DNA of 64,000 bases, from positions 124,001-188,000 of the forward strand of contig WIAF01000002.1 of NCBI GenBank assembly GCA_014055465.1, in the 5' to 3' direction. The DNA comes from Nitrospira sp. CR1.1 (GTDB lineage Bacteria; Nitrospirota; Nitrospiria; Nitrospirales; Nitrospiraceae). Positions 4,634 through 13,501 of the stretch are shown in pieces. The stretch's first letter is position 1; each line of letters opens with the position of its first letter. The notes below the pieces were generated by a model. It made no database searches and had not been told where the DNA came from. It saw only the letters and a list, made by a program, of their open reading frames with translations. A program made the position numbers and the translations under genes.

Positions 4634-4870
4634 ATGAGCGGACAGAGCTGTTTGATCGATGGTTGTCAGGCGAGAGTGTATGCGCCGGCGGGCACCCGTT
4701 CCATCTGCAAGGACCATTTCCTGGGATTTCTGACCTGGCGACGGCGGCGAGGGCCGCAGATGTTCCGCAAATACGCAGGGCTGACGATGGAAGAGCGTGA
4801 TGTGGTCGCAGCCGAATGGCTTCAGACGCTCGGCACGAAAGACCTCCCCCACCCTATCCCCGGGTTGTGA
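4634..4870 (+). CDS. Small putative zinc-binding protein
   Basis: This 78-residue soluble protein has four possible metal ligands in CLIDGC (residues 6-11) and CKDH (residues 25-28), followed by an arginine-rich stretch TWRRRRG and a helical C-terminal half (LTMEERDVVAAEWLQTL). The pattern suggests a treble-clef or zinc-ribbon knuckle of unknown role. The upstream in-frame ATG at 4571 adds 21 residues, but the ATG at 4634 has a GGGAGG site about six bases before it. I do not recognise a named family. Confidence 0.6.
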   Translation: MSGQSCLIDGCQARVYAPAGTRSICKDHFLGFLTWRRRRGPQMFRKYAGLTMEERDVVAAEWLQTLGTKDLPHPIPGL

Positions 4871-4954
4871 CCGCTTCGGCTTGACTCGAGGATCCCGTCC
4901 GCACAGCCTGCGCACCAGCCGAAGGCACCGGGTCTTCCAAATAGGCTTCAGCCG

Positions 4955-5305
4955 TTACCTGCCTCCGTCGGAGCGCAGAATTTCATCGCGAGTATGCAGC
5001 AGTTTCCCTTCTAGGGCCGCCTTCAACAACTGGGCGGTGTTTGAGACCCGCAGTTTCTTCATCATGTTGGCCCGATGAGTATCGGCAGTCTTCACGCTGA
5101 TGTGCAGAAGTTTCGCAATGCTGCGATTGGTGTGACCATCCCAGATCAGGCGCAGAATTTCCATCTCGCGCGACGTGAGATCCTCCGGCTTTCGATTCAG
5201 GACGACCGCTTCAGAACCGGTAGACACCTCACGGCTCTTCGCAGACGATCTGCTGACAGCCGGGTCTTCTTTCTCCCCGATCCCGGCTTGTTGTTCGGCC
5301 AACAT
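4955..5305 (-). CDS. LuxR-type DNA-binding regulator without a receiver domain (paralogue 1)
   Basis: This 116-residue protein has a charged, flexible N-terminal 35 residues followed by one LuxR/GerE helix-turn-helix (about residues 40-105). The core reads DLTSREMEILRLIWDGHTNR then SIAKLLHISVKTADTHRANM. It has no receiver or ligand domain, so its activity must be set by expression level or by a partner. It is closely related to the protein at 7104-7424 (shared segments MMKKLRVSN and QLLK.ALE). A small partner gene lies 61 bases upstream, behind a candidate sigma-54 promoter. Confidence 0.88.
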   Translation of the reverse strand: MLAEQQAGIGEKEDPAVSRSSAKSREVSTGSEAVVLNRKPEDLTSREMEILRLIWDGHTNRSIAKLLHISVKTADTHRANMMKKLRVSNTAQLLKAALEGKLLHTRDEILRSDGGR

Positions 5306-5366
5306 TACACACCTCCTTCATATAGCCTGCCCCACCGGCGCCCACGGCCCCACGAGATGCCTTCGG

Positions 5367-5612
5367 TTAATTCTCCCGCGCGGCGACAGGTTTCGAGGTA
5401 TCCCACAGGCGTTGGAGATAACCCAACACGGCCGTAATGGCTTGGGTGCGCGGTTGCCACGTTCCCAGCGCATTCCCGTTCAGTTCAACCCAACAGCCAT
5501 CGACCTTTTGACGCACAATCAATCGTTCAAACATGCCATGCATCGCCGGCTGAATGGCCAATAGATACTCCTGCTCTTCCCGATCTTTCAGCAAAAACCC
5601 TTTCACCGTCAT
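5367..5612 (-). CDS. Small protein of unknown function, partner of LuxR paralogue 1
   Basis: This 81-residue soluble protein of no recognised family reads as alternating strands (GFLLKD, EYLLAIQP, ERLIVRQ, CWVELNG) followed by a helix (RTQAITAVLGYLQRLW). The ATG at 5612 is preferred because a strong AAGGAGG lies seven bases before it. The in-frame ATG at 5681 also has a GGAGGTG site and would add 23 residues. A frameshifted relative lies at 7464-7744, and in both places the small gene precedes a LuxR-type gene. The pair probably works together, perhaps as a regulator and its modulator; that is inference. Confidence 0.7.
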   Translation of the reverse strand: MTVKGFLLKDREEQEYLLAIQPAMHGMFERLIVRQKVDGCWVELNGNALGTWQPRTQAITAVLGYLQRLWDTSKPVAAREN

Positions 5613-5738
5613 GGTCCGTTCCTCCTTGGTACTCCTGCCATAGGGGCTCACTCGTGGACGCTCCTTCACTCCCATCTTCACACCTCCATCCTTTATACTC
5701 CGCAGGGGGTTCGCCTTACGTCATCTGCCGAGCACTCT

Positions 5739-5754
5739 TTCAAAGCCCGTGCCA
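5739..5754 (-). promoter_or_regulatory. Candidate sigma-54 promoter of the 5.6-kb pair
   Basis: Read on the minus strand this is TGGCACGGGCTTTGAA. It has the complete -24 box TGGCACG, a 4-base gap and TTGAA at -12, so the GG and the -12 G are exactly 12 bases apart, as sigma-54 requires. The usual -12 GC is GA here. Start of transcription would fall near 5728, upstream of both candidate start codons. The same element with the same GA variation stands before the related pair at 7782-7797. Confidence 0.6.
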
Positions 5755-5830
5755 TGAGCCCATCATGTGTCCCCTCGCAGAAGAAACAACAACTTGCGCC
5801 ATTCATCTTGGGAAACACAGACGGCTCGCT

Positions 5831-5859
5831 GCTGTGTCACGATCAACAGACCTGTGCCA
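5831..5859. promoter_or_regulatory. Candidate activator site upstream of the sigma-54 promoter
   Basis: The words GCTGTGTCA (5831-5839) and GACCTGTGCCA (5849-5859) recur upstream of the second pair at 7893-7912, where the gap between them is 0 instead of 9 bases, about one helical turn less. The flanking DNA is otherwise dissimilar, so the words look conserved for function. The distance of about 77 bases from the -24 box is typical for an enhancer-binding activator. Confidence 0.45.
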
Positions 5860-6010
5860 AGTCATCATCATGAGACAGGTTGCACAACTGCATAGGCAGT
5901 ACGCTGGCGCTCGTCGGAAGCGTCAGACATCTCAAAGACCCGGTCGACTCGATCGATTTCAGAAGCGGAGAGAAGAAGGCAAGGGGGGAATCACGCCCAC
6001 GAGGCGCCAA

Positions 6011-6409
6011 TCATTCGGCGCAGGCGCACCCGTCGAGTGCACGAGTTGAAATATAGGTGAGATTGTTGGTGTACCGCATAAACCCCTTTTGGCGGCCATA
6101 GAGTCGCAGGAGGCAGCGGTCGCCTGTGAGTTGGACAAAGAAACTGTAGTCTGCGCCGGACGGCGAAGACACTCTGAAGGGACGAGGCCCCAGTGACCCG
6201 GTTGCCAGTACGGCGGTTGTGGTACCGGCGAGGCGATTCGCCATCTCTGGTTGTTCACCCTCTTCTACCAGGATGGATTCAAGCTGGCCGCGCGCCGTCT
6301 GGCGGCAGGATTCATCTGATAAGGTCGTAATGTGAGCCACCGTGGCACAGCCCGACAATAGGACGGCCCACAACCCGACCCACCCTACGGCGAAAGACAG
6401 ACCTGTCAT
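6011..6409 (-). CDS. Putative lipoprotein of unknown function
   Basis: This 132-residue protein has a type-II signal: a hydrophobic segment (LSFAVGWVGLWAVLLSGC) ending in the lipobox LLSGC with the lipidated cysteine near residue 21. The mature part contains TTLSDESCRQTARGQLESIL, a glycine/serine loop and several further cysteines (SCRQ, DRCLLR, CACAE), which could form disulfides in the periplasm. The ATG at 6409 is chosen because it puts the signal at the N-terminus; the frame runs on to 6484 without protein-like sequence. I do not recognise a family. Confidence 0.65.
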   Translation of the reverse strand: MTGLSFAVGWVGLWAVLLSGCATVAHITTLSDESCRQTARGQLESILVEEGEQPEMANRLAGTTTAVLATGSLGPRPFRVSSPSGADYSFFVQLTGDRCLLRLYGRQKGFMRYTNNLTYISTRALDGCACAE

Positions 6410-6561
6410 GCCGAACACGTTTCCATTGAAATCACGCGGACGGGCATAGGCATTCACAGCAGTGGCGCGACCGGCTGGGAACATCTCAGCGGGACATCAT
6501 CGCCTGAGCAGATGCGCTTCGTCGAGAATGACGAGGCCGCCGCCCCTCCACGCCGGGAGCT

Positions 6562-6954
6562 TCACCCCATTACAGGGCTGCCGTGGTGATGAATCATCAA
6601 CCACTCATCACCGATCCGTTCAAAAAGATTGGTCGCGAGCACGCGGGTTTCAACCGGCTGGTCGTCCTGCCGGCTGGTGAGGTGCTCGGTACAGATCACC
6701 CAGCCCAGGTCGCCTGCAACCTGGACCTGCACGTCGGACAGTTCGAATTTCATGGAGAAGGTGTTATTGAAGATGAGCACCCAGGAATCGCGCACTGCGG
6801 GCCAGTCGCTTCGGAGGGTCCAGCCTGGGTGAATGCAGGTAACGTACTCGAGATGCGCCCACACTTTGTCCATCTGGAGCATATCCAGGCTTTCAAAGGC
6901 GGCGTAAAACGCTAGATTCGCGCGGGTGATTTCTTCGATACGTTGTTCGACCAC
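6562..6954 (-). CDS. SnoaL/NTF2-like domain protein
   Basis: This 130-residue single-domain protein fits the SnoaL-like (nuclear transport factor 2) cone fold. It starts with a helix (ITRANLAFYAAFESLD), then has MDKVWAHLEYVTCIHPG, the typical WPAVRDSWVLIFNNT, and strands ending in LFERIGDEWLMIHHHGSPV. The histidine trio near the end is common in the SnoaL_3 group. Members are small enzymes or binding proteins, and the substrate cannot be told here. It is cytoplasmic and lies alone between the lipoprotein and LuxR paralogue 2. The length is typical. Confidence 0.85.
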   Translation of the reverse strand: MVEQRIEEITRANLAFYAAFESLDMLQMDKVWAHLEYVTCIHPGWTLRSDWPAVRDSWVLIFNNTFSMKFELSDVQVQVAGDLGWVICTEHLTSRQDDQPVETRVLATNLFERIGDEWLMIHHHGSPVMG

Positions 6955-7103
6955 GGCTCGCTCCTGCGACGGTGCGGCATTTTACTGCAAACGCCGTCGC
7001 CGGTGCGAGCCTCATTTGTGCTGCGAGGGGACGGACTCGCGGGGGGCCGCCGCACTGCCGGAAGTGGGACTTCCCCCGAGAGTGCGGGCCGCCGCGAATC
7101 CCT

Positions 7104-7424
7104 TCAGCCCGCGTGGGTGGCGAGCAGCCCCTCTTCCAGCGCCGTTTTTAAGAGCTGGGCAATATTGGAGACCCGGAGCTTTTTCATCATATTGGCCCGG
7201 TGCGCCTCCGCAGTCTTGATGCTGATATGCAATTGCTCCGCAATCGTGCGGTTCGTCAATCCCGCCCAGACCAGCTGCAAAATTTCCTGTTCGCGCGGAG
7301 TCAAATCCTCGGGGCGACGTTTCACCCCCATAGTCACACCCGATACAAGACTCAATCCGGATGATCCGTCCCGCGCCTGATCTTCCCGTGCACTCCCCAA
7401 CATATTCTGTTGATCATTCCACAT
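7104..7424 (-). CDS. LuxR-type DNA-binding regulator without a receiver domain (paralogue 2)
   Basis: This 106-residue protein has a short variable N-terminus and then a single LuxR/GerE helix-turn-helix, with core segments DLTPREQEILQLVWAGLTNR and TIAEQLHISIKTAEAHRANM. It resembles the regulator at 4955-5305 over the whole DNA-binding domain, and the two may recognise similar sites. There is no receiver domain. A frameshifted copy of the small partner gene lies 39 bases upstream, and a sigma-54 promoter candidate lies beyond that, so this gene probably still gets its transcription from there. Confidence 0.88.
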   Translation of the reverse strand: MWNDQQNMLGSAREDQARDGSSGLSLVSGVTMGVKRRPEDLTPREQEILQLVWAGLTNRTIAEQLHISIKTAEAHRANMMKKLRVSNIAQLLKTALEEGLLATHAG

Positions 7425-7463
7425 GGCATGCTCTCCTTTGGTTCTAGTTTCGGCTCTTCATCG

Positions 7464-7744
7464 TCAACCCGCCTGGGCAGAAAACCATGCCGAAATTGCC
7501 GACCATCCCTGCAGGGCCGTCAGCACGGCCGCGACCGCAGGCGTCCGGTCCGACCATTTCTTGTGCGGCACTCGCGACATCTCAACCCACTATCCATCAT
7601 GTAGTCTCTCACGTCCGGTTGCTCGAATGGTCCCGGGAGTCGGGGCGGACTGATCACCACGACGTCGTGATCCACGCCATTCAAGATTAACCATCCTTCC
7701 AGATCCAAGTTGCCCTTTGCGTCGCCTGCCCGTCGCTGTTTCAT
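7464..7744 (-). pseudogene. Frameshifted relative of the small LuxR-partner protein
   Basis: Reading from the ATG at 7744, residues such as LEGWLILNGVDHDVVVI and GPFEQPDVRDYMMD align with the intact 81-residue protein at 5367-5612 (KGFLLKD, GMFERLIVRQKVD). The match then jumps frame: WVEMSRVPHKKWSDRTPAVA and AVLTALQGW continue the alignment (WVELNGNALGTWQPRTQAIT, AVLGYLQRLW) in the next frame to a stop at 7464. Between the conserved GTG codon and TGGGTT this copy has one base fewer. Either it is a true one-base deletion or a sequencing error. It sits in the same place before a LuxR gene as its intact relative. Confidence 0.65.
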
Positions 7745-7781
7745 CAGTGTTTCCTAGACACTGTCTTCACAGTAGGCATAT

Positions 7782-7797
7782 ATCAAGGATCGTGCCA
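7782..7797 (-). promoter_or_regulatory. Candidate sigma-54 promoter of the 7.7-kb pair
   Basis: On the minus strand this reads TGGCACGATCCTTGAT: a perfect -24 TGGCACG, a 4-base gap and TTGAT. GG and the -12 G are 12 bases apart. As at 5739-5754 the -12 dinucleotide is GA instead of GC. Transcription would start near 7771, giving a leader of about 27 bases to the ATG at 7744, which has an AGGAA site. Confidence 0.62.
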
Positions 7798-7880
7798 TCA
7801 CTGACGGGAGAGAAAGCCCTATAAAATACTAGGGGCTTAGGCCGAGGACCCCTTCCGCGAGCATGTGATGCGTCAATGAG

Positions 7881-7915
7881 ATGGCACACGGCGCTGTGTC
7901 AGACGTGTGCCATGT
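7881..7915. promoter_or_regulatory. Inverted-repeat activator site candidate
   Basis: ATGGCACAC (7881-7889) and GTGTGCCAT (about 7905-7913) form a perfect 9-base inverted repeat. Within it lie GCTGTGTCA (7893-7901) and GACGTGTGCCA (7902-7912), the two words shared with the region 5831-5859. Its place about 85-115 bases upstream of the -24 box fits a binding site for a sigma-54 activator; the NtrC-type protein encoded at 8065-9459 is the obvious candidate. Confidence 0.5.
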
Positions 7916-8064
7916 GACAACATGCGCAGGGGTGGGATGACAATGGCATCAAACGGGGATATCAGAAAAGGATGAAAGGCGTCTGGAAACGAACGCAACA
8001 GCATCAAGACCTACGTCCAATGAGAGAGGAGAGCGCCTGCGGGTCATCCCGCTCACGCGCCGGT

Positions 8065-9459
8065 TCACTGCAAGGAATCCGTACCGATCTCGGCCGAGGC
8101 GGCTACATCGTATTCAGCCAGACGACGGTAGAACGTTCTCCGGCTCATTCCCAGCAAGCGCGCGGCCTCCGAACGGTTGCCGCCGGTCCGCTGCAACGCC
8201 GCCAGCATGCGGGTTCGCTCGTCCTGACGCTGAAGCGGAACATAGGTCGCCTGTGGCTCCGGACTGCGGACTTCAGGCGGGAGATCCTCCGTCCGCATCA
8301 CGGTCCCTTTGCAGTGAATCAACGCTGACTCCACGGCACTTTTCAACTCACGAACATTCCCTGGCCAGGAATAGCTGGTCAACACCTGGAGCGCCTCGGG
8401 ACTCACTCGGAGCACTGGCTTTTCCATCACGGAACGAAATTGTCCGAGAAACGCATGGACCAGGAGCGGGATATCCGACGGCCGTTCGCGGAGCGGGGCG
8501 AGCCGGAGGCGCGCCACCTTGATCCGATATAGCAAATCCCTCCGGAAGGTCCCTTTCTCCACGTCCGCCGCAAGATTGTGATGGGTCGCGACCACGACCC
8601 GGACGTCGACCTTCCGAGGCTTGGATTCTCCCAATCTCGTCACTTCCCGCTCCTGCAGGACACGCAGGAGGCTCGTCTGTACGGCAGGGGAAATATCGCC
8701 GATCTCGTCCAGAAAAATGGTCCCTCCCCGCGCGGCCTCAAAGACTCCCTCCTGGCTGTCGATAGCCCCGGTAAAGGCCCCCTTTTTGTGACCGAATAGT
8801 TGGCTACCTAGAATCGAATCGGTGAATCCCGCGCAATTGACGGCAAGAAATGTGTGCGGCGCGCGGCGGCTGGAAAGATGGATCGCACGGGCCACCAATT
8901 CCTTGCCCGTGCCGGTTTCCCCCTCGATCAACACCGTCGCATCCACCGCCGCAATCTGTTGAATCTCTTCGTACAACACCACCATAGACGGACTTCGGCC
9001 GATCAGGTCATGAAACTTGCCGTGGTCGGCCAGCTGCGACTGCAGCGCTTGAGCCTCATCTTCAGCCGCGAAGCGGCGCCGCACACTCTCCACCCACTGT
9101 TCGGCAATCGTCAAACGTAATCGTAAGAACTCGACGCCAACGGGCTTGGCCAGATAGTCGTTGACCCCGGCCTGAAGCGCCGCCCGCAATGATTCCGGAG
9201 AGTCGTGTGCGGTGATCATGACGATGACGCAGCGATCTCCGCCGGGACCGGATCGAATACTCCGGCACAGCTGCAGTCCATCCATTCCACCCCCGCGCAA
9301 TTCCCAATCGAGCAGCACCAGATCATATGGCCGCTGGCCATAGGCCTCCGCTGCTGATTCACCATCGGCGCAGGCCATCACCTCATGCCCGCGCGCTCTG
9401 ATCACCTGCTCGAACAGGCACCGGACATCGGGATGATCCTCCACCAGCAATACGCGCAT
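8065..9459 (-). CDS. Sigma-54-dependent response regulator (NtrC family)
   Basis: This 464-residue three-domain activator has a receiver (residues 1-115, phosphoacceptor Asp51 in LVLLDWEL), an AAA+ domain and a C-terminal Fis-type helix-turn-helix. The AAA+ domain carries Walker A GETGTGKE at 180-187, the sigma-54 contact loop GAFTGA near 227 and GGTIFLDEIGDI. The Fis helix reads NRSEAARLLGMSRRTFYRRL. When phosphorylated, such proteins form hexamers and remodel sigma-54 polymerase. The hybrid kinase gene lies 13 bases upstream in the same direction and is the likely phosphodonor. Two sigma-54 promoter candidates lie just downstream. Confidence 0.97.
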   Translation of the reverse strand: MRVLLVEDHPDVRCLFEQVIRARGHEVMACADGESAAEAYGQRPYDLVLLDWELRGGGMDGLQLCRSIRSGPGGDRCVIVMITAHDSPESLRAALQAGVNDYLAKPVGVEFLRLRLTIAEQWVESVRRRFAAEDEAQALQSQLADHGKFHDLIGRSPSMVVLYEEIQQIAAVDATVLIEGETGTGKELVARAIHLSSRRAPHTFLAVNCAGFTDSILGSQLFGHKKGAFTGAIDSQEGVFEAARGGTIFLDEIGDISPAVQTSLLRVLQEREVTRLGESKPRKVDVRVVVATHHNLAADVEKGTFRRDLLYRIKVARLRLAPLRERPSDIPLLVHAFLGQFRSVMEKPVLRVSPEALQVLTSYSWPGNVRELKSAVESALIHCKGTVMRTEDLPPEVRSPEPQATYVPLQRQDERTRMLAALQRTGGNRSEAARLLGMSRRTFYRRLAEYDVAASAEIGTDSLQ

Positions 9460-9472
9460 GCCGTTCTATCCT

Positions 9473-12400
9473 TTACTCATAGATCACGTGCAGCCGAGTC
9501 AGAAACCGGCTGAGCCGTTCCAGAATCTCACGCGCATCGGCGGCATCTTTGCGCACGGCCGCCGTCTCCAATGACCGCCCGTATGCTGTAATCGCTTCAA
9601 CCCCGTACGTTCCGCCGGCGCCCTTGAGACCGTGGCCGATCTCCCGCATCATCTCAAAATCTTCACGGCTCAACGCCTCCGTTATCTGGATCACGTCGTG
9701 GCGCCGATGCTCCAGAAACCCAGGCATGAGCGGTTCAAGCTCCCCGTTGACATGGAGCACGACGACTTCTTCATCAACAGACGGCGTAGGTGGCGCGGAT
9801 GAATCGACGGTTTGGAGATATAATTCAATTGCCTCCAGCAGCCGGGCCTTGCGGATGGGTTTCGTGAGGTGCGCGGTGCATCCCGCATCAAGACTGCGCT
9901 GCACTTCGCTCGGCAACGCATTGGCCGTCAGCGCCAGGATGGCGGTGGGACGGCGGCCCTGGTCTTTTTCCCATGCGCGGATCGCTCTCGTTGCGGCATA
10001 CCCGTCCATCACGGGCATCTGAACATCCATCAGGACCAGATCATAGGATCCGTGCATGAACATCTCGAGCGCAACCTGACCATTCGCCGCCGTCTCCACC
10101 CGGTGCGGCGTCGTCTTGAAATAAAACTCCATCATGCGGCGGTTGTCGACAAAATCTTCAGCCAGAAGAATCTTCAGACCGGACGGTTCAACTACGTGAG
10201 TCCCTGATCGAGGTTGAGTCACTGGCCCAGGGTTCCCGGTTGATGCCGTCCTGCCCATCACGGCCATCATGGCGTTGAACAGATCGGAGCGTCGAAAGGG
10301 CTTCGTGAGAAACCGTACGACCCCATATTCGCGGGCCCGACCCTGGTCACCGGCGCGCCGTTCCGATGTCAGCATGATAATCGACAGTCCGGCCAGACCC
10401 GGCGATCGTGCGATGATCTCGGCCACCTGCCAGCCGCTGAGTTTCGGCATGCGCACATCCAAAATCACCAGACGATAGGGCACGCCGGCCTTGAGCGCAC
10501 GATGCAACTCCATCACCGCCTCGTTCCCTCCAGCCGCCTCCGCCGAAGGAATACCCCAGCCCGTCAGGGTTTCCCGAACAATCAGACGATTGGTCGCATT
10601 GTCGTCGATGATCAAGGTGTGCAACCCTGCGAGTTGTTCCCATTGCGCCGGAGGAATCGCGGAAGCCGGCTGAGCATGCGCGGCAAACTTGGCGGTGAAA
10701 CTGAACATGCTGCCATGCCCCGGCTCGCTCTCCACCCACATTCTGCCACCCATCCGCTCGACCAGACGCCGGGAGATCGTCAGGCCAAGCCCCGTGCCGC
10801 TATAGGGCCGCGTCATCGAAGAGTCCACTTGAGTGAAGCGTTCAAAGATGACGGCTAGCTTGTCGTGAGGAATTCCAATGCCGGTATCACGCACCGTGAA
10901 CAGCAGATTGCCAGGGCCGTCTGCCAGCGGGTCACACTCCACGCGCAAGACGACCTCTCCCTGTTCCGTAAACTTGATGGCATTGCCTAACAGGTTCAGG
11001 AGCACCTGCCGAAGGCGGTTCGGATCACCGACGAGTGAGGTTGGAACATCAGGCTGGATCTGATAGGCCAACTCCAGATTTTTTTCGCTGGCGCGAACTG
11101 CCACCAACTCTGCCGCGCGCTGCACCACGTCACTGAGGTCGAAGTCTGTCAGATCCAAATCCAAATAGCCGGCTTCGATCTTCGACAAGTCGAGCACATC
11201 GTTGATCAAACTCAGCAAGTTACTTCCGGCATCTCGAAAAATCTGGACGTACTCTTGTTGATCCTCATTCAGCGGCGTCTCCGACAGCAGATCGGCCATG
11301 CCGATGATCGCATTCATGGGCGTGCGGATCTCATGGCTCATGGTGGCCAGGAAATCGCTCTTTGCCCGATTGGCGAATTCGGCGGCCTCCTTCGCGGTGA
11401 CCAAGGCCTGTTCCGCTTCCTGCCGTTGCTTCGCCTCATAGGCCAAGGTGACCAAATTCCCGATAGACATGGCGAACTGTGTTTCTTCGTTGCTCCACTT
11501 ACGCGCCCATCCGATTCGTTCGTGGCAGACGACTCCGGCCAGGCGACCGCCGAAGAAAATCGGCACGTCCAACAACGAAACAATCCCCAATGTTTGAAGA
11601 TAGGGCTGCAGTAATTCAGCGGTGCGCGGATCACTGGCGACATCATCCGCATCGACCACTTGCTCCTCCAGCAACTCGTTAAAGTATCGGGGGTACTGCG
11701 CGACATCGAGACGCGCCCCGCGCGAATGCCGAGCCTGGGCTCGTTCATAGAGTTCTGCGCATTCCAGCACCGCTCCGCTACGGTCCAGCAACCAAACACT
11801 GGCGCGGTCCACAGCCATGGTCTCCGCGGAGTTGTACATGAGCTCTTTCAGCGCGGACGGCCAGTTCCCCGAACCGATATGCCGGCTTTTGATTAAACGC
11901 ATGAGTGCCTGCTGATGCGCGTGGAGCACCGATTGGCTGCGACGCAGCGCCGCTTCCGCCTCGGTGCGCCTGGTGATATCCAGCACCAGCGTCAGCACGC
12001 AGTTCTCTTGTCCGATACAGACCGGTTCTACATTGAAGAGGCCGTGCCGAAGTTCGCCGGACTTTGTACGAAACTCTTTCTCCAGCTGCCGGAGAAAACC
12101 GTCCCGCCGTAACGTCTCGGCTAATTGTCGACGGTCGTCCGGATTGACCCACATACCGATATCGAGCGAGGACATGCCGACCAGCTCGTCCCGAGAAAAT
12201 CCGGAGACCCGCACGAACGCCTCATTGACATCGAGCACCCGCCCATCCTCAAGGCGGCTGATGGCCATTCCTGCCGGACTGCTATGAAAAGCCTTTGAAA
12301 ATCGCTCCTCACTCTCCCGCAACGCCTGCTCCACCTGCTTCCGTTCGGTAATTTCGCGCGCCACCACCTGAAAACCGTTGACGGCGTTCCCGTCCATCAA

Positions 12401-13501
12401 CAGTTGCGTATGCTGCCCCAGCCATACTTCCCGGCCATCTTTGGTCGCGACCGGCAACTCGTACACCGTCCGAGACGTTTTACGGATAAACTGTCGGCCG
12501 TAAAACCGCTCGGCCTGAGCACGACTTTGCGGCTGAACAATCTCCAGATAATGGCGGCCGAGAAGTTCCTCCGGCAGATAACCGAGAATTCGCAATGAAG
12601 TAGGATTGCAGTACGTGAACCGCCCGGCGGCATCGGTTCGAAAAATGATATCCCCGGCGTGCTCGACTAAATCGCGGTAGCGCTTCTCGCTCTCCCTCCT
12701 AGCATCATCGGCCTCTTTCCTCGCCGTAATATCCAGATGAATGCCGGTCATCCGAGTCATCCGGCCCTGCTCGTCGCATACCCCCGAGCCCAACGCGGCC
12801 ATCCATCGGTATGAACCGTCCTGATGCCGGAGGCGATGATCCAAGCGATACTGCTTGGTATATCCCTGCTGAAACAGCGCGACCGTTGCCAGGACTTGCG
12901 CCTGTTCATCCGGATGGAGACGCGATTCCCAATCGGCGACCGTAGGACCGATGTCCGACTCCGTGCAGCCAAGCTGACTTTTCCATCGAAGAGAGTAGTA
13001 GGCTGACCCGGTTGCCAGATCCCATTCCCACACGCCCACATCCGCGCATTCCGCCGCCAATTCAAACCGTTGGCGACTCTCATGTAATGCCGCCTCAACC
13101 TGCCGCTGTTCGGTCAATTGCATCGATAGACGATCATCGGCAGCGATCAGATCCTGCGTCTGCTCCGCCACGCGCTGTTCCAACCGGCTATTGGCTGAAC
13201 GAAGCGCACTCTCCACTTCGCGCCGCTGGGAGAGTAGATAGGCCATGCCCCAAAGCAACCCGACTCCCATTGTACGATTAACGATCGCCGTTGCGACTTC
13301 AACACCGGGAGGTGCAAACCAAAGCCCGGCGCCCAGCAAGATCGTACACAACGATGCATAGCGCAGTGAGGCCAGAGGCGAAGCGAACCGCGCAGTCAAC
13401 CACAGTGGAAGCATATACAGAAGCCACATGACATGCCCCAGCGGAATCGCCACATCCAGGGCAAAAATTCCGGCGGTCAGCAGGCCTATAGTGACTAGCA
13501 T
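9473..13501 (-). CDS. Membrane-bound hybrid sensor histidine kinase with PAS, GAF, two receivers and HPt
   Basis: This 1342-residue kinase has about three hydrophobic helices in the first 90 residues and then a coiled coil. Three PAS domains follow (about 140-260, 270-390 and 395-515), then a GAF domain (about 530-685) and the HisKA dimerisation domain with phospho-His723 in ATMSHEIRTPMN. After these come an HATPase domain (DTGIGIPHDK, GTGLGLTISRRL), receiver 1 (LVILDVRMP), receiver 2 (LVLMDVQMPVMDG) and a C-terminal HPt domain (HGLKGAGGTYG). It forms a His-Asp-His relay, most likely to the NtrC-type regulator encoded 13 bases downstream. The signal is unknown; PAS and GAF suggest a cytoplasmic redox or small-molecule cue. 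Confidence 0.96.
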   Translation of the reverse strand: MLVTIGLLTAGIFALDVAIPLGHVMWLLYMLPLWLTARFASPLASLRYASLCTILLGAGLWFAPPGVEVATAIVNRTMGVGLLWGMAYLLSQRREVESALRSANSRLEQRVAEQTQDLIAADDRLSMQLTEQRQVEAALHESRQRFELAAECADVGVWEWDLATGSAYYSLRWKSQLGCTESDIGPTVADWESRLHPDEQAQVLATVALFQQGYTKQYRLDHRLRHQDGSYRWMAALGSGVCDEQGRMTRMTGIHLDITARKEADDARRESEKRYRDLVEHAGDIIFRTDAAGRFTYCNPTSLRILGYLPEELLGRHYLEIVQPQSRAQAERFYGRQFIRKTSRTVYELPVATKDGREVWLGQHTQLLMDGNAVNGFQVVAREITERKQVEQALRESEERFSKAFHSSPAGMAISRLEDGRVLDVNEAFVRVSGFSRDELVGMSSLDIGMWVNPDDRRQLAETLRRDGFLRQLEKEFRTKSGELRHGLFNVEPVCIGQENCVLTLVLDITRRTEAEAALRRSQSVLHAHQQALMRLIKSRHIGSGNWPSALKELMYNSAETMAVDRASVWLLDRSGAVLECAELYERAQARHSRGARLDVAQYPRYFNELLEEQVVDADDVASDPRTAELLQPYLQTLGIVSLLDVPIFFGGRLAGVVCHERIGWARKWSNEETQFAMSIGNLVTLAYEAKQRQEAEQALVTAKEAAEFANRAKSDFLATMSHEIRTPMNAIIGMADLLSETPLNEDQQEYVQIFRDAGSNLLSLINDVLDLSKIEAGYLDLDLTDFDLSDVVQRAAELVAVRASEKNLELAYQIQPDVPTSLVGDPNRLRQVLLNLLGNAIKFTEQGEVVLRVECDPLADGPGNLLFTVRDTGIGIPHDKLAVIFERFTQVDSSMTRPYSGTGLGLTISRRLVERMGGRMWVESEPGHGSMFSFTAKFAAHAQPASAIPPAQWEQLAGLHTLIIDDNATNRLIVRETLTGWGIPSAEAAGGNEAVMELHRALKAGVPYRLVILDVRMPKLSGWQVAEIIARSPGLAGLSIIMLTSERRAGDQGRAREYGVVRFLTKPFRRSDLFNAMMAVMGRTASTGNPGPVTQPRSGTHVVEPSGLKILLAEDFVDNRRMMEFYFKTTPHRVETAANGQVALEMFMHGSYDLVLMDVQMPVMDGYAATRAIRAWEKDQGRRPTAILALTANALPSEVQRSLDAGCTAHLTKPIRKARLLEAIELYLQTVDSSAPPTPSVDEEVVVLHVNGELEPLMPGFLEHRRHDVIQITEALSREDFEMMREIGHGLKGAGGTYGVEAITAYGRSLETAAVRKDAADAREILERLSRFLTRLHVIYE

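Follow-up and report, generated by a model that had tools for sequence, protein, structure and literature searches.

The window analysed here is a stretch of 64,000 nucleotides from Nitrospira sp. CR1.1, whose genus comprises nitrite-oxidising bacteria. On its minus strand lie, in order, genes for a hybrid histidine kinase and an NtrC-type sigma-54 activator; a promoter, A, followed by the remnant of a small gene (smallA) and by luxA; genes for a SnoaL-like protein and a putative lipoprotein; and a second promoter, B, followed by smallB and luxB. The kinase (1342 aa; 9473-13501) carries PAS/GAF, HisKA, HATPase, two receiver and Hpt domains by Pfam. A first-pass annotation, made from the sequence alone, had called the adjoining gene (464 aa; 8065-9459) an NtrC-type activator with GAFTGA, correctly: the motif is present in the sequence, and Pfam identifies a receiver, an AAA+ domain and a Fis-type helix-turn-helix (HTH). 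Between the two promoter units are the SnoaL-like gene (6562-6954), whose product is 92-100% identical across relatives, and the gene for the putative lipoprotein (157 aa; 6011-6484). A 67% copy of the SnoaL-like protein is encoded near a distant kinase/activator pair in another genome, G169.

Both LuxR-type proteins are short: LuxA (106 aa; 7104-7424; PF00196, E=8.9e-20) and LuxB (116 aa; 4955-5305; E=2e-17). Their PF00196 scores, 70.5 and 63 bits against a gathering score of 23.5, place them in the LuxR/GerE HTH superfamily. They share the GerE HTH with the output domains of FixJ/NarL-type response regulators, but Pfam finds no receiver (PF00072) in either, which sets them outside that type. 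The LuxA HTH is nearly invariant over the genus, and the recognition helix of LuxB differs by few residues (KTAEAHRAN vs KTADTHRAN or SN).

The small genes are paralogues with about 40% identity. smallB (5367-5612, the ATG at 5612 being chosen by conservation) encodes an 81-aa orphan protein that matches no Pfam or NCBIfam family; in its predicted fold (mean pLDDT 80), one helix accompanies four strands, and the PDB contains no significant match. smallA (7470-7705) is frameshifted in the window genome, where family-model matches at 7601-7705 and 7470-7610 fall in different frames, and has TTG where relatives carry ATG. The frameshift could be either real decay or an assembly error. Elsewhere, many relatives have an intact smallA, whereas in several genomes it is damaged or was not detected. 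In G036 and G037, promoter B is followed by luxB with no small gene in between, and G020 likewise yielded none behind promoter B. Of 175 genomes from the taxonomic family, 28 have the small-protein family, mostly in two copies, and almost all of these belong to this genus. Thus, of the pair that the first-pass annotation placed behind each promoter, a small gene and a receiver-less LuxR gene, the second member stands and the first is optional. Because small genes are damaged or missing in several genomes, the LuxR genes are treated as the core output: what is conserved there is a pair of LuxR (GerE-domain) proteins without receivers.

Each promoter contains the core TGGCACG-N4-TTGA on the minus strand: core A at 7783-7797 (TGGCACG-ATCC-TTGA, TGGCACGATCCTTGA) and core B at 5740-5754 (TGGCACG-GGCT-TTGA, TGGCACGGGCTTTGA). 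The first-pass annotation had found both, and the matches are exact (7797-7783 and 5754-5740), although its intervals were one base too long. Both cores agree with the sigma-54 promoter pattern TGGCAYR-N4-TTGC/A at the fixed −24/−12 spacing, and both are conserved in relatives. Majority frequency is 0.99 for core A over 15 loci and 0.88 (mean, alignments) for core B, which departs from the consensus in some relatives: CGGCACG (L039/L040), TGGCATA (L042/L043) and AGGCCTG (G020). The G020 core B is degenerate (AGGCCTGAAGTTTGA), yet the words upstream of it are kept. The genome encodes one rpoN gene, and no sigma-70-type consensus promoter was found in 4700-8300.

Upstream of the cores, also on the minus strand, are clusters of a half-site, TGRCACA, whose positions are counted here from the first T of the core. 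The putative activator sites of promoter A (7869-7912) comprise TGGCACA at −115 (7912-7906); TGACACA at −104 (7901-7895); an inverted copy, TGTGCCA, at −91 (7888-7882); and a variant, TGACGCA, at −78 (7875-7869), which reads TGACACA in one relative (L038). They are conserved in relatives, and within the genome the arrangement occurs only here. The putative sites of promoter B (5833-5859), identified by conservation and genome-wide site counts, are TGGCACA at −105 (5859-5853) and TGACACA at −85 (5839-5833). Beyond them, at −123, is the word TGTCTCA (5871-5877), an inverted half-site variant (TGAGACA) with a majority frequency of 0.99. An extra half-site copy is present at −115 of promoter B in G036, G037, G020 and G011.

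The promoters therefore carry differently spaced half-site pairs: TGGCACA-N4-TGACACA at A (7912-7895) and TGGCACA-N13-TGACACA at B (5859-5833). Recurring upstream words had been reported at both promoters, with a 9-base shift in spacing from one to the other. The words are real, but their positional pairing was wrong, the partner being at −115 in A and at −85 in B, and the half-site common to both promoters is at −104/−105, so the 9-base difference reflects a differently placed partner half-site. Exact TGRCACA occurs 50 times in the 150 bp upstream of 19 A cores, versus 2.1 in shuffles, and 36 times upstream of 18 B cores over the same length, versus 1.95.

Fourteen relatives of the locus (L032-L045) were collected through the activator gene and then compared. 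Both promoters are found in 13 of them; the last, L045, shows A alone within the available DNA. Nearly all close relatives in the genome collection bear the label Nitrospira. Cores and half-sites recur at the orthologous positions of Nitrospira relatives and of one further genus, whereas the surrounding intergenic DNA has diverged; the mean majority frequency of the upstream words is 0.88-0.99, versus 0.61-0.62 for other columns. The adjacency of kinase and activator is likewise conserved in relatives. Four more distant genomes keep the arrangement: G036 and G037, with A and B about 8 kb and about 24 kb apart, respectively; G020; and G011, which belongs to another genus.

Pattern searches of the 4.44-Mb genome (31 contigs) underlie all genome-wide statements. 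The exact core, TGGCACG-N4-TTG[AC], occurs at four places, two of them cores A and B; the remaining two (C8:117748 and C19:31023) were rejected as regulon members, being without half-sites. Allowing one mismatch yields 151 matches, versus 147 for a reversed-pattern control. Accordingly, the one-mismatch core on its own was rejected as evidence: it is no commoner than the control and amounts to little proof, so the case must rest elsewhere. Requiring a suitably spaced CACA upstream of the core gives four places, versus none for the reversed control, and two of the four are promoters A and B. C4:282081 and C18:31675 were also set aside as further members, TGRCACA half-sites being absent.

The word pair TGRCACA-N4..13-TGRCACA occurs at four places, versus none for the control, and two of these are A and B. 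The other two, C2:396707 and C3:245178, were rejected as members because neither has a suitably placed sigma-54 core; the former overlaps the beginning of a peptidyl-prolyl isomerase-like gene. When 29 genomes of the genus are taken together, 34 of the 35 occurrences of TGRCACA-N4/N13-TGRCACA are at promoters A and B; the N4 form is at A or B in 19 of 19 cases, and the N13 form at B in 15 of 16. Since these spacings are almost confined to A and B, the predicted regulon consists of these two units. Conservation, whole-genome site counts and co-occurrence with the activator all support what the first-pass annotation predicted: twin sigma-54 promoters that share activator sites, an NtrC-type activator next to them, and a small regulon whose output layer is of LuxR type.

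Two other sigma-54-like arrangements were observed. At C18:31675-31782 (G000, L079), a promoter TGGCATG-N4-TTGC with a CACAGC..AAAATAACGAAC stretch upstream turns up in numerous genomes of the genus; without TGRCACA words, it is likely a target of another activator. At L003 (positions 338 and 1500; G000 contig C8, the second core being 117748), a pair of sigma-54-like cores is separated by about 1.2 kb. Each has GATCCGATACA-type words upstream, and the pair is possibly a second twin-promoter set, belonging to another activator.

Further conserved blocks accompany the two promoters on the minus strand. Between the activator sites and core A, the block TAAGyCCCTAGTATTt (7824-7839) has a mean majority frequency of 0.88, versus 0.61 for other columns, and is a weak candidate for an IHF-like or LuxR site. 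A hairpin-like block at 7817-7834 was considered as a terminator and rejected on inspection of the alignment, the stem not being held in all relatives. The corresponding interval of promoter B contains an IHF-like stretch, CAAGTTGTTGTTTC (5783-5796); its TTGTTT part is conserved (majority frequency 0.90). Between promoter B and smallB/luxB lies a leader element, CGTAAGGCGAACCCCCTGCGGAGT (5697-5720), conserved in relatives. Its consensus finds its best match in the genome here, with 2 mismatches, and one other place with 3. It might serve as a binding site for a LuxR protein or as an element of control at the RNA level. An Rfam search of 4800-8200 returned nothing.

The distribution of the activator parallels that of the promoters. 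Orthologues of at least 77% identity are present in G020, G011 and G032, all of which have the module; none was found in G018, G025, G030 or eight sampled other genera, which are module-less and have a best full-length match of about 45%. Among the genomes compared, orthologues at this level co-occur only with the promoters. G169 has a distant kinase, an activator relative of about 57-58% and a SnoaL neighbour; no twin promoters were found there, and its weak small-protein match is at a locus without the other genes.

The cores and half-sites, their conservation, the gene order, the confinement to two promoters and the co-occurrence with the activator make it likely that the locus encodes a local two-tier switch, in which a phosphorelay acts through an NtrC-type activator and sigma-54 on twin stand-alone LuxR regulators. 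In the NtrC family, the phosphorylated activator assembles on its sites and remodels the sigma-54 polymerase through the GAFTGA loop. Here, the hybrid kinase, the presumed phosphate source, would phosphorylate the adjacent activator, which would bind the half-site clusters about 75-125 bp upstream of both promoters and drive open-complex formation by RNA polymerase-sigma-54, probably with DNA bending. LuxA and LuxB would each be made from one promoter, often with the small orphan protein ahead. Lacking both receiver and ligand domains, they presumably have their activity set mainly by the amount made; the sigma-54 layer would thereby turn a phospho-signal into amounts of two related regulators, which in turn would act downstream.

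Three other explanations deserve consideration. The sigma-54 promoters could be real and the TGRCACA sites serve a different activator, the adjacent one regulating something else. With about 27 full sigma-54 activators, the genome offers others that could bind the half-sites. However, in the relatives examined, the other genus included, promoter A comes directly after the activator gene, and the sampled genomes that lack the module also lack the activator orthologue; we consider a different activator unlikely. Less likely still is that the conserved words are sites for LuxA, LuxB or another repressor, with the cores not used as sigma-54 promoters. Blocks 7824-7839 and 5697-5720, which have no assigned binder, would fit such a scheme, but the spacing within each core is right for sigma-54, few blocks are as well conserved as core A, and the upstream clusters lie at a distance typical of activator sites.

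Points against the switch include the departures of core B from consensus in some relatives and the likeness of the half-site TGGCACA to a −24 element. On the latter ground, the upstream repeats might be extra sigma-54 holoenzyme sites, forming tandem or decoy promoters. In keeping with this, TGGCACA-N4-TGGC resembles the −24/−12 spacing, and some relatives have TGGCACA-GGTC-TGGCACA as their pair. Yet a −24 element cannot do without its second G, which here is freely replaced by A (TGACACA); promoter A carries a conserved inverted copy; and the spacing in B is N13. Of the three explanations, this one is the hardest to credit.

The local switch remains the preferred reading, and it has known counterparts. 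ZraSR with zraP and AtoSC with the ato operon are local NtrC-family two-component/sigma-54 modules. As in those systems, a kinase and a receiver-AAA+-Fis activator are encoded beside the controlled sigma-54 promoters, with (here putative) activator sites upstream. In contrast, two transcription factors are the outputs here, where those systems have enzymes or transporters; the kinase is of the hybrid type and includes Hpt; and the activator, whose solved relatives are ZraR, NtrC and NtrC1, falls below the NCBIfam equivalog cut-offs for AtoC (385.9 vs 714), NtrC (347.8 vs 558.6) and ZraR (338.8 vs 760). In Vibrio quorum sensing, a phosphorelay hybrid kinase controls the NtrC-type activator LuxO, which acts with sigma-54 to make small RNAs. 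The predicted chain here resembles LuxO in joining a phosphorelay to a regulatory, not metabolic, output; unlike LuxO, that output is protein regulators, and the activator scores 293.6 against the LuxO equivalog cut-off of 800. LuxA and LuxB, as short stand-alone LuxR-type HTH proteins, are akin to the thioredoxin-responsive PedR of Synechocystis, likewise a small regulator of LuxR type (PMC4361706). They differ in their predicted sigma-54 promoters and in scoring 48 and 44.5, respectively, against the PedR equivalog cut-off of 120 (NCBIfam). Our literature searches retrieved no description of the module; a transcriptome paper on N. moscoviensis discusses other sigma-54 regulators, near nxr (PMC6606698).

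The predicted sigma-54 regulon is small, local and well supported, and its parts are all of known kinds. More tentatively, and somewhat short of probable, the module could be a Nitrospira-specific relay: a two-promoter regulon whose twin LuxR proteins, with slightly different recognition helices, control genes important for nitrite oxidisers. Regulation in Nitrospira is little known at the level of promoters and sites, and here the whole predicted chain (kinase, activator, site sequence, promoters and outputs) comes with exact bases. The interest lies in an unusually clean two-target regulon and in the targets of LuxA and LuxB. These two strongly conserved LuxR proteins may form a second layer of regulation in a nitrifier of global importance.
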